Source: Candidatus Wolfebacteria bacterium
GTDB taxonomy: Bacteria > Patescibacteriota > Minisyncoccia > Phycocordibacterales > EsbW-18
NCBI GenBank assembly: GCA_022616195.1
Contig: JAKEFG010000016.1
Span: 1-38,258, forward strand
DNA: 38,258 nucleotides
Direction: 5' to 3'
The notes beneath the pieces were generated by a model. That model searched no databases, had not been told where the DNA came from, and saw only the letters and a list, made by a program, of their open reading frames with translations. The stretch's first letter is position 1; each line of letters starts with the position of its first letter. Both the position numbers and the translations under genes were made by a program. Shown here in pieces: positions 26,656 to 36,158 of this stretch.

Positions 26656-27546
26656 TCACTTCTTGAGCAAAAGGTGCACCGCCTTGGTAATAATCGGCAA
26701 GATGTCATCATACGCGTTCAAGCTCACTACTTCGGAGAGCTTGAACCACTTGGCGTCATCAAGTCCCCCCGTACTTCCGAGCTTCAAATCCTGATACGGC
26801 GCCTCGGCGAGAAAATATGATACTTGCTTGCGAATTTTTCCTTTTTCCGGGTGTGACGCCACATACTCGTTGTTCCCGAGTTCATCACCAACAGCAATAT
26901 CCAAACCGAGTTCTTCTTTGATAGCTCGCATCGTTCCCATTTTGACATCCTCGCCTTCTCCAACGCCCCCTTTGGAAAGCGTCCAGTGCCCGAACACGTC
27001 GTGTACAAGAGCGAGATACACGTTGCCGTTTTTCTTTGCATACACGACCGCGCCGGCAAGTTTTTCAATAGGCATTCTTTCAAACGGAATGTCCTTTGGT
27101 TTCTTTGACGTCTCGTCCTTTCCGGGCTCACCGAGCTCTTTGTATACTGAACCTAAAACTCCATTCACAAACTTGCCGCTGGACTCTCCGCCATAGGTCT
27201 TCGCAAGTTCAATCGCTTCGTTGATTGCAACCTTTGCCGGCACCTCGTTTCTATCCGCAAAGAGAAGTTCGTAGAGCCCGATACGAAGTACGTTGCGATC
27301 AACAACAGAAATCTTCTCAAGCGGCCAGTCAGGGGCCGCTTTTGTCATAATCGTGTCAATGTCACCCTGCTTCTCTAGTACGCCTCTCAAAAGCTTCTCC
27401 ATGAACACAAAGTCGCCCATGCCGGGGGCGAATTCTTCCGCATTGCGGTGGAGCGCATCAGAGATAGTAGCAACATCAGTACCTGAAAAATCGTGTTCAA
27501 AGAGTGTTTGAAGCACAACTGATCTGGAAAGGTGCCGATTTGCCAT
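26656..27546 (-). CDS. nusB: NusB-Nudix fusion protein
   Basis: 296 residues from the ATG at 27546. Residues 1 to about 140 are NusB: MANRHLSRSVVLQTLFEHDF, APDWPLEKISVVDRNVLRIG, VPAKVAINEAIELAKTYGGE, SGKFVNGVLGSVYKEL. Residues about 165-296 form a Nudix hydrolase-like domain (AGAVVYAKKNGNVYLALVHD) with the box GGVGEGEDVKMGTMRAIKEE. The REUxEE glutamate next to R is replaced by A (RAIKEE), so activity may be altered. NusB binds boxA RNA with S10 in antitermination and rRNA synthesis; the Nudix part may hydrolyse or sense a nucleotide. Confidence 0.9.
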   Translation of the reverse strand: MANRHLSRSVVLQTLFEHDFSGTDVATISDALHRNAEEFAPGMGDFVFMEKLLRGVLEKQGDIDTIMTKAAPDWPLEKISVVDRNVLRIGLYELLFADRNEVPAKVAINEAIELAKTYGGESSGKFVNGVLGSVYKELGEPGKDETSKKPKDIPFERMPIEKLAGAVVYAKKNGNVYLALVHDVFGHWTLSKGGVGEGEDVKMGTMRAIKEELGLDIAVGDELGNNEYVASHPEKGKIRKQVSYFLAEAPYQDLKLGSTGGLDDAKWFKLSEVVSLNAYDDILPIITKAVHLLLKK

Positions 27547-27653
27547 GGTTCGTTTGGATTCTACTCTAGCATATATATTAATTTTGTAAAGAACTCTACA
27601 GCACGCGCCCTTCTTCCAAAAACCAACTACGCCCCCTGACAAACCCCGGCGGG

Positions 27654-31888: not shown

Positions 31889-31959
31889 AAAAGGGCGAGA
31901 GAGAACAGCGCCCCACTCGATCCAAGAGCGACCATCTACTGTCTCGTTCTCTCTCGCCC
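31882..31959 (-). terminator. Terminal array unit acting as terminator
   Basis: On the minus strand the 14-bp outer stem GGGCGAGAGAGAAC/GTTCTCTCTCGCCC of the last unit is followed at once by TTTTCTATTTT, giving a rho-independent-like end for the array transcript. Confidence 0.6.
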
Positions 31960-32481
31960 TTCAACCCACCACAAAGCTACGGGAAGACAGTCTTACTATC
32001 GTGCACAAAGCACACCCGCTCGATCGTCTTCCCTCTTCAAACAACTCTAAACCATTGAGGTTGTTTGAAGAAGGGGTGAGACATCCCGTGACCCGTCTTC
32101 TCAGACAAACGCCCAATCGTCTCACCCAAAGAACTATCGAGAGGACACAATTCATGGATCGTCTGTAGGAACAATAGACAGACTGTCAATCGTGTCCTCT
32201 CTCCATAGAGAGGGCGAGACACGATGCTCATCGTCTTTCTAGACACCGGTCTCATCGTCTCGCCCAAGAACTGTGGGAAGACAGCGGGTAAATCGTGCAG
32301 AAGCACAAAAAGGATATCGTCTTCCCCCTTCAGAGGTTTCTTGGGTAAAAACCCTCTGAAGAGGGGGCGAGACACGGAGGGAATCGTCTTGAAAGACAGT
32401 TTCCGCATCGTCTCGCCCCGTAGGTTACCGGCAGACATTGTCGCTGTCGTACTTGTTGTACACCATCGCTGTCGTCTGCCG
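31893..32481 (-). repeat. TIGR-like guide RNA array, distal part (8 units)
   Basis: Eight nested-hairpin units: 31893-31959, 31981-32033, 32074-32127, 32139-32201, 32212-32265, 32275-32326, 32364-32419, 32429-32481. Each has outer arms of 8-14 nt specific to the unit, a 12-nt strand, an inner hairpin with 4-bp stem (GTGC/GCAC, GTCT/AGAC or GTAC/GTAC), a second 12-nt strand and the closing arm. Every 12-nt strand starts with A (plus sense) and most end in ATC. In RNA sense this reads AC-GA-N9-U-GU. The unit next to dnaE has a degenerate inner stem. Plain hairpins sit between units at 32034-32071 and 32328-32361. Orientation is inferred from the promoter at 34226 and the terminal U-tract. Confidence 0.85.
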
Positions 32482-32499
32482 TGAACTGAAAGAACTATG

Positions 32500-33774
32500 C
32501 TACGCCGCTTGCGCCTCGTCCCGCGCGATCCTGCCAGACCGCTCGAACCCCCACCACGCGCGGTAGAGCCACTCCGTGAACTTTGTCCTCGTCCGCCAGA
32601 GCGCCATCTTGTGGATGTGTCCGTTGGTATATTTGAGCACTCCGTCCACCTCGACGGGCTCGGGGTGCCGCTCGCGAAGCACTGTCTTCCAGTGCCGGAG
32701 TTTCTTACCCCAGCGCGAATCGGGGCGCCGGTTCCACTGGTCGCCGAGAAGGAAGAGTGCCTGGCGGATGTCGGGATGCCAGTTCGCGACCTCTCCCCTG
32801 CGCCTCCTGGGGAAGCGGCCGTCCTCGAGCACGTGACAGCCACAGAAGGTCTTGAACTTGGCCACAGTCGGGAACCGCCGGATGTCGATGACCGCAGCGA
32901 TGATGGGCGCGGCAAGCGCCGGCCCGACCCCCTCGATGGGCTCAAGGAGTTCCGTGTAGAGATCGAGTGCTCCGAGTGCTTTCGCGAGTTCACGCTCGCG
33001 GGCGCCCTCCTCCGCGAGGAGTGCCGTGAGAATGCGGTCGCTCGCGCGCCGCGCGTCGTGCGCCTTCTCAAGCCCACCCTCGGGGTACCCCCCTTCCGGC
33101 GAGCAGAAGACCTGCCCGATGGTGTGCTGACGGAGCCGCTGCTCGCAGGCGATACGCCCCTTCATCGCGTCGATGCGGTCCCGGTGGGCTTCGCGCACGC
33201 GGATGAGCGCGAGGTCGCGGTCGGTGACTGGGAAGAAGAGCGCTGCCCGCTCGCGGACCAAGAGCGCGAGGGTGCGAGCGTCCTCCCCTCGCTCACCGCT
33301 CCGCTCCCTGGCGAGAACGAAGGGTGGGATGCGGAGGACCTCGACGTCGATCTCGCGCGCCCGCCGTGCGAGCGCGAACGCGAAGTAGTTGCCGCTCCCG
33401 CCGAGCACCATCCCCACGCGGTCGCCCGGCGAGAGACCTCCATAGGCCGCCGGTACGCGATGCACGCGGTAGACGAGCTTGCCGTCACGCCGGAGATGCG
33501 TCTCTGGCAGACCTTCGACGGACTCGTCTGCCTTCACCCGGCGCCACATGATGTGGTGCGGCTTGAAGCCCGAGAGGTTGTCTCCCGGCTCCACCCGCCG
33601 AACCTCGACCGGGAATTCGCCGAGGGCGTAGTCGAACTCCGCCTGCTCGTCTGGGAGCTCGAGGGTCTCAACCTCGTCTCCCTCTAGGATGACAACCTGG
33701 GTGGGATGGGCCTCACCCTCGGCCGTCGTCTTCACCCGATGCCGGATCCCGATGAACCTCGTCGCTTCTTCCAC
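32500..33774 (-). CDS. Tas-like protein: IS110-related with Nop-type domain, probably nuclease-dead
   Basis: 424 residues, GTG start with AAAGGAG 6 nt upstream. Residues 278-345 form the IS110 C-terminal/Nop-like RNA-binding region (EPIEGVGPALAAPIIAAVID, RRFPTVAKFKTFCGCHVLED, RRRRGEVANWHPDIRQALFL). A helical coiled region lies before it (about 185-275). The N-terminal part resembles the IS110 DEDD/RuvC fold (VGMVLGGSGNYFAFALARRA, GEDARTLALLVRERA). By eye the first Asp (GID) is GIR, the EATG glutamate is lost (LGGSG), and one Asp of the DxxDA pair is Arg. Flanking guide-like arrays instead of IS ends point to a TIGR-associated (Tas) protein rather than a transposase. GC content is well above the neighbours, which suggests transfer. 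Confidence 0.8.
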   Translation of the reverse strand: MEEATRFIGIRHRVKTTAEGEAHPTQVVILEGDEVETLELPDEQAEFDYALGEFPVEVRRVEPGDNLSGFKPHHIMWRRVKADESVEGLPETHLRRDGKLVYRVHRVPAAYGGLSPGDRVGMVLGGSGNYFAFALARRAREIDVEVLRIPPFVLARERSGERGEDARTLALLVRERAALFFPVTDRDLALIRVREAHRDRIDAMKGRIACEQRLRQHTIGQVFCSPEGGYPEGGLEKAHDARRASDRILTALLAEEGARERELAKALGALDLYTELLEPIEGVGPALAAPIIAAVIDIRRFPTVAKFKTFCGCHVLEDGRFPRRRRGEVANWHPDIRQALFLLGDQWNRRPDSRWGKKLRHWKTVLRERHPEPVEVDGVLKYTNGHIHKMALWRTRTKFTEWLYRAWWGFERSGRIARDEAQAA

Positions 33775-33788
33775 GACACGCTCCTTTC

Positions 33789-34123
33789 GTTCCCTAAGGA
33801 ACAGTTGGCCTGTCCTGACGGGCGGTTAGAGAAGAAACACTCGTGCTTTCGTGCTTTGCGCACAGCGTTTTCTTCGTCTCTTCTCTCTTTGTTGAAGCGG
33901 CACAATCTCGCTTTACGTCCCGCTGTGCGGGACAGTCGCGCCATCGTGCCGCCTCGTGACATCAAAGAACATGAGGGGAAATATTGCTGGCATAGCGTTT
34001 CTCTAACGCAGTCGTATCTACGTTCCCCCTCTCCAGAAACCTTTCTCGACTGAAAAACCTCTGGAGAGAGGGTGGGACAGCTCTTCCCTCGTTTACTGCA
34101 ACAAAAAGAGGATCGTCCCACCC
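33789..34123 (-). repeat. TIGR-like guide RNA array, promoter-proximal part (4 units and a half unit)
   Basis: Full units 33828-33886, 33897-33952, 33973-34031 and 34070-34123, all with 12-nt strands around an inner hairpin (one strand has 13). The outer arm of 33973-33982 has one mismatch and one wobble with 34022-34031, yet the spacing is kept. A plain hairpin (CTCTCCAGA/TCTGGAGAG, 34029-34068) overlaps a unit end. A half unit (GTTCC-ctaa-GGAAC, 33789-33802) abuts the tas start, and its 11-nt strand contains the tas Shine-Dalgarno. In the unit at 34070-34123 the core is exactly 12+12+12 nt. Confidence 0.85.
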
Positions 34124-34322: not shown

Positions 34323-36158
34323 GTGAAGAAATCCACCGAACAACTTGGACTCATGCGGCACTCGCTTGCACACTTGCTTGCAGCAGCAGTGCTTGAACTC
34401 TATCCGAACGCCAAACCTTCCATTGGTCCATCTATTGAAAACGGTTTCTACTATGACTTCGATTTCTCCGCTTCGCGGAGTGCAGATTCCCGCAGATTGA
34501 AACGCGAATCAACGCAGATATCAGACAAGGACCTCCCGAGGATTGAGAAAAAAATGAAGGAACTGCTCCCGTCGTGGGAGCTGTTTGAGCGCATTGAGGT
34601 AACGCCCGATGAGGCGCGGCAGATGTTCTCCGGCAATCCCTACAAGGTTGAGTTGATAGATGAACTTGAGAAAAACGGCGAGCAGATTTCCCTCTACTAC
34701 TCCGGTCCCCGCAACAGCATCCCCGATGCTAACGAAGCTACCAAGCTAACGAAGCTACAAGCTGGTTTTCTCGATTTGTGTCGGGGCGGACACGTCGAAC
34801 ATCCATCAAAAGACATTGACTCCGACGCGTTCACACTCACCCACATCGCCGGTGCGTACTGGCGCGGCGATGAAAAGAACCCCATGCTCACGCGCATCTA
34901 CGGACTCGCATTCAACACCAAAAAAGAACTTGAGGAGCACCTCGCGATGCAGGAGGAGGCAAAAAAACGAGACCACCGAAAACTTGGGAAGGAGCTCGGT
35001 CTCTTTATGTTTCATGAGACCTCGCCAGGCATGCCGTACTGGCTCCCAAAAGGTGTTGTACTCTACAACGAGCTGGTCAACTTTTGGAGAGAAGACCATC
35101 GAGCACGAGGGTACCAGGAAATCGTATCTCCCCTACTGAACAAGAAAGAGCTCTATATAACCTCGGGGCACTACGATCACTACTGGTCAGAAATGTTTGT
35201 TGCTGAAACAGGGGATGAAGATGAGGAATACGGTGTCAAAGCGATGAACTGTCCGAATGCCCATGTGGTATTCGCGAGCCAGCCGAGAAGCTACAAAGAT
35301 TTGCCCCTACGGCTCTCCGACACCGATACGCTCCACCGACACGAACGCTCAGGAACACTTAGTGGATTGCTCCGCGTCCGCTCCTTCAGGCAGGACGACG
35401 CACATATCTACGTTGCCGAAGACCAAATTGAGGCAGAATACCAACGAGTGTTTGAAATTGTCGAACGGTTCTACTCGCTGTTTGGCATGTCGTACTCATA
35501 TCGGTTGAGCACGCGACCCGAAGACATCATGGGAAACCCGGAAACATGGACCACCGCAGAGAACACGTTGAAAAAAATCCTCGACGAGAACAATAAGCCG
35601 TTTACAGCGGGTGACAAGGAGGGTGCTTTTTACGGGCCAAAGGTGGACATCATGATGAAAGATGTGCTCGGCCGGGAGTGGCAGATGGGCACTATCCAGC
35701 TTGACTTCCAACAGCCCCGTCGGTTCAACTTGGAATATACCGACAAAGACGGCACCAAAAAGATGCCTATTGTCATACATCGTGTCATCTATGGCTCGCT
35801 TGAGCGTTTTATCGGTATACTTATCGAACACTATGCGGGTGCGTTCCCGCTTTGGCTCTCGCCGATACAAATCAAGGTGCTTCCTATTGGCGAAGGGCAG
35901 TACGAATACGCACAACACGTACACCAAACACTCAAGGAGCACGGCATTCGCGCGGAGCTTGATGACAGCAACGAGACCTTGGGTAAAAAAATTCGCAACT
36001 GGAAGCTTGAGAAAGTTCCCTATGCGCTTGTTATTGGGGACAAGGAGGTTGAAAGTCAAAAGTTAAAAGTGGAAAGTAGAGACAGTGAGAAATCAGAATC
36101 TCTCGCGCTTGAAAAACTCTTGGAAAAACTCCAGAAAGAAATCGCAAACAAAGCGTAG
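34323..36158 (+). CDS. thrS: Threonine--tRNA ligase without TGS domain
   Basis: 611 residues, GTG start. It opens with the editing-domain motif MRHSLAHLLAAAV; the N-terminal TGS domain of about 60 residues is absent. GFYYDFDF and FLDLCRGGHV (usually CRGPHV) follow. Class II motifs: RARGYQEIVSPLLNKKELY, RLSDTDTLHRHERSGTLSGL, LRVRSFRQDDAHIYV, and motif 3 HRVIYGSLERFIGILIEHYA. The anticodon-binding domain ends the protein. Residues about 49-66 (SASRSADSRRLKRESTQI) replace the usual short linker and are encoded by a palindrome plus CGCAGAT repeats. The last part is encoded by AAAGTCAAAAGTTAAAAGT-like repeats. Confidence 0.95.
   Translation: MKKSTEQLGLMRHSLAHLLAAAVLELYPNAKPSIGPSIENGFYYDFDFSASRSADSRRLKRESTQISDKDLPRIEKKMKELLPSWELFERIEVTPDEARQMFSGNPYKVELIDELEKNGEQISLYYSGPRNSIPDANEATKLTKLQAGFLDLCRGGHVEHPSKDIDSDAFTLTHIAGAYWRGDEKNPMLTRIYGLAFNTKKELEEHLAMQEEAKKRDHRKLGKELGLFMFHETSPGMPYWLPKGVVLYNELVNFWREDHRARGYQEIVSPLLNKKELYITSGHYDHYWSEMFVAETGDEDEEYGVKAMNCPNAHVVFASQPRSYKDLPLRLSDTDTLHRHERSGTLSGLLRVRSFRQDDAHIYVAEDQIEAEYQRVFEIVERFYSLFGMSYSYRLSTRPEDIMGNPETWTTAENTLKKILDENNKPFTAGDKEGAFYGPKVDIMMKDVLGREWQMGTIQLDFQQPRRFNLEYTDKDGTKKMPIVIHRVIYGSLERFIGILIEHYAGAFPLWLSPIQIKVLPIGEGQYEYAQHVHQTLKEHGIRAELDDSNETLGKKIRNWKLEKVPYALVIGDKEVESQKLKVESRDSEKSESLALEKLLEKLQKEIANKA
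34466..34521. repeat. Inserted repeat in thrS
   Basis: CTCCGC-ttc-GCGGAG palindrome (34466-34480) followed by three CGCAGAT-type words up to 34521. It is in frame within a housekeeping gene. ACGCGAATCAACG resembles the repeat upstream of rnc. Confidence 0.55.

Follow-up and report, generated by a model that had tools for sequence, protein, structure and literature searches.

A chromosomal TIGR-Tas module with an inactive RuvC domain and a stem-loop guide array in a Candidatus Wolfebacteria bacterium

Introduction

What does an RNA-guided protein do once the catalytic acids of its nuclease domain have been replaced? The question is raised by a 38,258-nucleotide (nt) stretch of a Candidatus Wolfebacteria genome (GCA_022616195.1, contig JAKEFG010000016.1, positions 1-38,258; hereafter the window, meaning the whole stretch), which carries on its minus strand a gene, tas, for a protein of the TIGR-Tas family, flanked by an array of guide units. 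Faure et al. 2025 described a distinct TasR clade of the candidate phyla radiation (CPR) with an inactive RuvC, large Nop insertions and stem arrays, exemplified by Candidatus Buchananbacteria RIFCSPHIGHO2_02_FULL_56_16, and suggested that it could mark a stage on the way to box C/D small nucleolar ribonucleoproteins (snoRNPs); the role of nuclease-dead TIGR systems is an open question in that paper (PMC12045711). The same authors reported that TasR binds DNA through two spacers, used D11A as the dead mutant of TaTasR, whose catalytic Asp is residue 11, and suggested non-cleaving blocking for the nuclease-less TasA (PMC12045711). Here we report that the window protein has lost three of the four acids of the RuvC site, and argue that the module probably grips chosen DNA and blocks it without cutting.

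Results

The tas open reading frame (ORF) is intact, starts with GTG and is preceded by AAAGGAG. Its product matches the NCBIfam model for TIGR-Tas RNA-guided endonucleases (NF052498) at 134.9 bits against a cut-off of 100, and this match spans residues 195-407, which contain the Nop-like domain expected of a Tas protein. By contrast, the score against the IS110 transposase equivalog is 40.4 bits, far under its cut-off of 140. In profile comparison the match is 6e-23 to TasR and 0.003 to IS621. In Pfam, Transposase_20 is matched and DEDD_Tnp_IS110 falls under its cut-off (13.9 bits versus 29), and PADLOC returned no match. An AlphaFold model built from nine sequences (mean predicted local distance difference test score, pLDDT, 88) has as its best solved whole-chain match TasR with tigRNA and DNA (9mty; Z score 19.2 over 284 residues), followed by IS621 (Z 17.3). 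The C-terminal part of the model matches TasH (Z 16.6), comparison with Nop5 gives Z 7.4, and residues 4-183 match RuvC Holliday resolvases (RuvC 4ld0, Z 9.1); the N-terminal domain is modelled as a RuvC fold. Within it lies an insertion at about residues 51-112 that some relatives in the alignment do without. The Tas-like identity and the retained Nop-like region claimed by the original prediction, which was made from the letters of the window alone, are both borne out by these matches.

We then considered the acids of the RuvC active site, which in the original prediction appeared to be lost. Strand 7-11 reads FIGIR, which puts an Arg at residue 11, the place of the first catalytic Asp, and structural alignments to TaTasR (6 to 6), IS621 (4 to 4) and T. 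thermophilus RuvC (4 to 0) all start in this register. The strand expected to lead to the catalytic Glu comprises residues 119-123 and is followed by LGGSG (124-128). Alignment to IS110 sequences with hhalign gives a Glu register three residues away, which makes this the least certain of the site positions; since residues 119-139 contain neither D nor E, either register yields no acid. When the A2 profile was aligned to the TaTasR chain, the DENDS of TaTasR fell on R162-G-E-D165-A, with the first Asp of the DxxD motif replaced by R162 and the second kept as D165. Each of the substitutions read by eye in the original prediction (GIR for GID, LGGSG for EATG, Arg at the first Asp of DxxDA) was therefore recovered, and the arrangement it had named as contrary to it, three or more acids in a RuvC-like site, was seen neither in the model nor in the alignments. 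Its reading that the DEDD acids appear to be lost holds for three of the four conserved RuvC acids of active TasR; D165, which it did not mention, is retained. As judged from the alignments and the model, a normal RuvC metal site cannot form in this protein.

Relatives of tas were found in nine genome contigs, from Adlerbacteria, Magasanikbacteria, Uhrbacteria, Andersenbacteria and others. They occur in 4 of 60 near genomes and, across the phylum, in 14 of 380; the window's own genome is part of either figure, and the latter also takes in four divergent proteins. In the branch alignment of 21 sequences, Arg occupies position 11 in 19, with H and V once each, G fills position 125 in 20 and S in the remaining one, and residue 162 is always K or R; none has an acid at any of these three positions, and D165 is kept throughout. 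Also invariant are R6, R13, K15, P24, T25, E46, D118, G126, S127 and R158. In an alignment of 20 sequences, conservation of the RuvC core (0.667 and 0.644) is about equal to that of the Nop part (0.683). The four columns of the catalytic site exceed random draws from the RuvC core in conservation, only 0.5% of random four-column sets reaching them. Because the replacements are shared across the branch and the site columns are conserved beyond chance, the loss of acids is neither a sequencing error nor an accident. At the level of sequence, these data point to a dead site that has been remade and is under selection, rather than one that is decaying, and hence to a RuvC fold that still has a job.

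Further members of the family were noted alongside this branch. One relative (L008, 2986-4500) has its tas split over two frames near the 3' end, through a frameshift or an assembly error. In a distant Tas protein (L028 382-3258; G273:C25), inspection by eye finds two acids kept, the first Asp in RIDGGKN and the Glu in MEAGGG, and DxxD lost, making it a possible intermediate in the loss of the acids. Three divergent CPR Tas proteins (L025, L026, L027) show no clear Asp or Glu at the RuvC site. No active TasR was recognised in 380 CPR genomes searched with a TaTasR fragment, and the further matches of that search that were looked at proved to be IS110s or divergent Tas proteins.

About eleven guide units lie at the locus on the tas strand, eight downstream of the gene (32482 to 31898) and three upstream (34123 to 33830), each of the form stem-ACGA-N9-TGT-hairpin-ACGA-N9-TGT-stem (Table 1). 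The original prediction made no mention of this array. Allowing up to two mismatches, the box pattern occurs seven times in the window against 0.19 expected. When no stem is required, the motif numbers 85 on the tas strand of 25 loci and none antisense, with a single occurrence in 281 kb of other host sequence. Watson-Crick pairing of the outer stem runs from 91 to 56% over seven positions and then stops, compared with 55 to 27% for shuffled partners. Among 23 units of equal length, 91.6% of stem cells pair, compared with 68.8% after shuffling and no more than 53.5% after sliding, and double changes number 74 versus 23.6 in shuffled units; the box columns, having been selected for, are uninformative in this covariation test. 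Run over the whole genome, a covariance model found nine units at the E-values used, four of which were in its training set, and all of which lie at the tas locus. ACGA is followed at the tenth base by T in 135 of 140 cases, and the spacer length is accordingly nine bases. Within the spacers the positions are close to uniform, and no spacer is common to two loci; that spacers differ at every locus suggests changing, probably foreign, targets.

Rfam gave no match. The last unit may serve both as a weak guide unit and as a transcript terminator. A doubtful upstream unit near 33975-34030 was missed by the covariance model and is excluded from the list. At the L028 locus the unit architecture is that of the window with boxes ATTA-N9-TAT in place of ACGA-N9-TGT, a C-G to T-A switch at a paired box position, in seven units on the tas strand and none antisense. 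No array of either box type was recognised at the L025, L026 and L027 loci. At L023 (742-990, minus strand), two weak covariance-model units (23.8 and 14.8 bits) lie opposite the tas strand, an exception to the same-strand rule.

The module sits between dnaE and thrS, genes that in three relatives (L086, L089, L090) lie next to each other with no tas between them; in the nearest tas-bearing relative (G001, 59% identical), tas is on another contig. The guanine-plus-cytosine (GC) content of the gene (67%, versus 52% for the window) and the patchy distribution of tas among relatives make the module look horizontally acquired. Neither element ends nor a target-site duplication could be identified at it. 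No neighbour gene recurs beside tas within the 1.5-3 kb flanks of relatives, so that there is no obvious partner protein.

Other features of the region and of the genome are as follows. Antisense to tas runs a 396-amino-acid (aa) ORF (32497-33687, plus strand), and many relatives' loci also have long ORFs opposite tas; these probably arise from high GC and codon use. The genome also has a second ThrS-like gene, cut by a contig end (G000:C11:4018-5154, L093), which is 50% identical to the one at 34323-36158. At 26659-27642 (minus strand) a single ORF has NusB and NUDIX domains, an apparent fusion.

Table 1 Coordinates of the tas gene, its domains and site codons, and the guide units in the window.
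Feature	Position	Strand	Spacers	Basis
tas gene, 424 aa, inactive-RuvC TIGR-Tas protein	32500..33774	-		NF052498; model closest to 9mty
RuvC-fold domain, residues 4-183	33226..33765	-		structural alignment to RuvC 4ld0, Z 9.1; alignment
Coiled coil and Nop-like RNA-binding part, residues 184-414	32533..33225	-		NF052498; model
Arg11 codon, place of first catalytic Asp	33742..33744	-		structural alignments; branch alignment
LGGSG codons (124-128), place of catalytic Glu motif	33391..33405	-		model; hhalign; branch alignment
R162-G-E-D165 codons, place of DxxD, only D165 kept	33280..33291	-		alignment to TaTasR
Guide unit 1, upstream	34070..34123	-	TCCTCTTTT + GGGAAGAGC	covariance model 45.3 bits (training-set unit); fold z -4.1
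Guide unit 3, upstream, second half degenerate	33895..33954	-		20.1 bits, E 0.0016; fold z -7.0
Guide unit 4, upstream	33830..33884	-	AGAAAACGC + AAGCACGAG	31.6 bits
Guide unit 5	32428..32482	-	CAGCGATGG + CAGCGACAA	29.9 bits
Guide unit 6	32365..32418	-	TGCGGAAAC + TTCCCTCCG	53.6 bits (training-set unit)
Guide unit 7	32274..32327	-	TATCCTTTT + TTTACCCGC	46.2 bits (training-set unit)
Guide unit 8	32212..32265	-	TGAGACCGG + TGAGCATCG	51.2 bits (training-set unit)
Guide unit 9	32140..32200	-	TTGACAGTC + TCCATGAAT	34.6 bits
Guide unit 10, second box ACGG	32074..32127	-	TTGGGCGTT + GTCACGGGA	39.4 bits
Guide unit 11	31980..32034	-	TCGAGCGGG + TAGTAAGAC	34.4 bits
Last unit, 16-bp outer stem then T-rich stretch	31890..31961	-		21.5 bits for 31898-31954; 16-nt perfect inverted repeat

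Discussion

We consider it probable, with moderate confidence, that the locus is a chromosomal TIGR-Tas module in which a protein with a dead RuvC domain and its guide array grip chosen DNA and block the target without cutting it. Branch-wide loss of the acids, together with the lack of a recurrent neighbour gene, favours an autonomous non-cleaving binder. Blocking by binding, by analogy with the TasR structure and with the suggestion made for TasA, is the best-supported mechanism, albeit an unproven one. Transcription of the array and its processing would yield guide RNAs of one stem-loop each, one of which would be bound by a Tas dimer. Following the pattern of TasR, each of the two 9-nt spacers would then pair with a different strand of an 18-bp DNA target, and the complex would stay on the uncut target, whose transcription or replication would be blocked. 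Mobile DNA entering the cell would be the likeliest target. At the point where TasR would cut, the nucleic-acid backbone may instead be held by the remade site (R11, H12, R13, K15, R158, K/R162). The original prediction of a protein that keeps guide binding and DNA recognition but cannot cut agrees with the Tas assignment, the Nop part, the guides at the locus and the expected absence of a metal site; DNA binding and blocking are steps that we infer.

Several results weigh against this reading. Twelve spacer pairs (one of them from the doubtful upstream unit), scanned in four orders with gaps of -2 to 8 against 329 kb of host sequence, 52% of the host genome with the window, matched at the level of mispaired controls. 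Exact searches of six guides against IMG/VR hit 0, 0, 0, 1, 1 and 0 contigs, about the number expected by chance. No relatives of tas were found in viral contigs, phages or plasmids, and the module is chromosomal, unlike most TIGR systems. The single exact 18-base matches to viral contigs, of guide 7 at L095 304-321 and of guide 5 at L116 3730-3747, are the only target candidates found and stand at chance level. As for the form of the targets, a near-palindromic one, an idea prompted by the similar starts of the two spacers in guide 5 and in guide 8, was unsupported over 70 units.

A more specific proposal is that the former nuclease site (IGIRHRxK, LGGSGD, K/R162 and D165) has been rebuilt for a particular role at the RNA-guided target, for example as a strand clamp or a dock for a host factor; we put this forward tentatively, as possible but unlikely. 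A related and rather doubtful alternative is that Tas marks the target for a host nuclease or another host factor, to which the remade RuvC domain would bind. Conservation of the former catalytic columns beyond chance is what would be expected of such a binding surface, but the available flanks show no partner gene recurring next to tas.

It is also possible, though we regard it as distinctly doubtful, that the complex is a proto-snoRNP that targets RNA, its dead RuvC domain docking an RNA-modifying enzyme as the N-terminal domain of Nop5/Nop56 docks fibrillarin. The box C/D-like units with stems and the Nop fold are consistent with this, as is the evolutionary intermediate proposed by Faure et al. 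(PMC12045711). However, the one fibrillarin match in the host genome lies under the cut-off (17.4 bits versus 27), and the mean longest complement of the spacers to one 6-kb ribosomal RNA (rRNA) region, 6.96, equals that of shuffled spacers (6.93). Nor did the covariance model find units dispersed in the genome, or different loci share spacers, as already described.

Regulation of host genes by guides matching the chromosome would accord with the chromosomal location of tas and its absence from the phage and plasmid collections. No spacer pair rose above the mispaired controls in the scanned half of the host genome, however, and three guides had no match at up to two mismatches in the whole of it; we consider this reading improbable. 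Continued cutting, through D165 and nearby non-canonical acids or through another site, seems very improbable: D165, E46 and D118 are indeed invariant, but the topology of the model would place D118 at a strand start away from the catalytic end and E46 in a helix, and positions 11, 125 and 162 are free of acids in every branch sequence. Hardly credible is a decaying IS110-type transposase, which the Pfam matches might suggest and which the family scores, the guide arrays and a site that is conserved rather than decaying contradict.

If the non-cutting reading of the module is true, the locus offers a naturally nuclease-dead, RNA-guided binder that carries two 9-nt spacers and is a counterpart of dCas9 in nature; were the site also rebuilt, the CPR would hold an RNA-guided system that works without cutting and amounts to more than an inactivated TasR. 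One gene, about eleven guides, an explicit unit consensus and a set of conserved residues at the site make it a compact test case. Relative to the literature consulted, the conserved replacement residues with evidence of selection appear to be new, as do the unit consensus with covariation, the spacer turnover, the empty site and the negative target searches.

Comparison with known systems places the module as follows. IS110 transposases such as IS621 share its RuvC, coiled-coil and Nop-like parts, but are characterised by a DEDD RuvC and a C-terminal serine nucleophile; the window protein scores under the equivalog cut-off, is without the DEDD site and lacks a Ser at the aligned ESGSS motif, and its locus has an array where IS621 has one bridge RNA. 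Box C/D snoRNPs (Nop5/Nop56-fibrillarin) likewise have a Nop fold, an inactive RuvC-like N-terminal domain and a two-guide box C/D-like RNA, whereas at this locus the units are clustered and neither fibrillarin nor rRNA complementarity was found in the searches above. Active TasR (TaTasR, 9mty) resembles the window protein in whole-chain fold and in its two 9-nt spacers and differs in its acids and in having a dual-repeat rather than a stem array. TasA, a solo Nop protein with stem-loop arrays, is like it in that no nuclease activity is expected, but the window protein retains a conserved RuvC-fold domain. The closest counterpart is the CPR inactive-RuvC TasR clade, with which the system shares a CPR host, RuvC and Nop parts, the loss of acids, a stem-loop array and two 9-nt spacers. 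The Nop insertion of that clade is absent from the window protein, which has instead the insertion inside its RuvC domain, and is present in four relatives (L009, L010, L022, L023). By the published description of the clade, an inactive RuvC, a CPR host and a stem array, all found here, the window system belongs to it.
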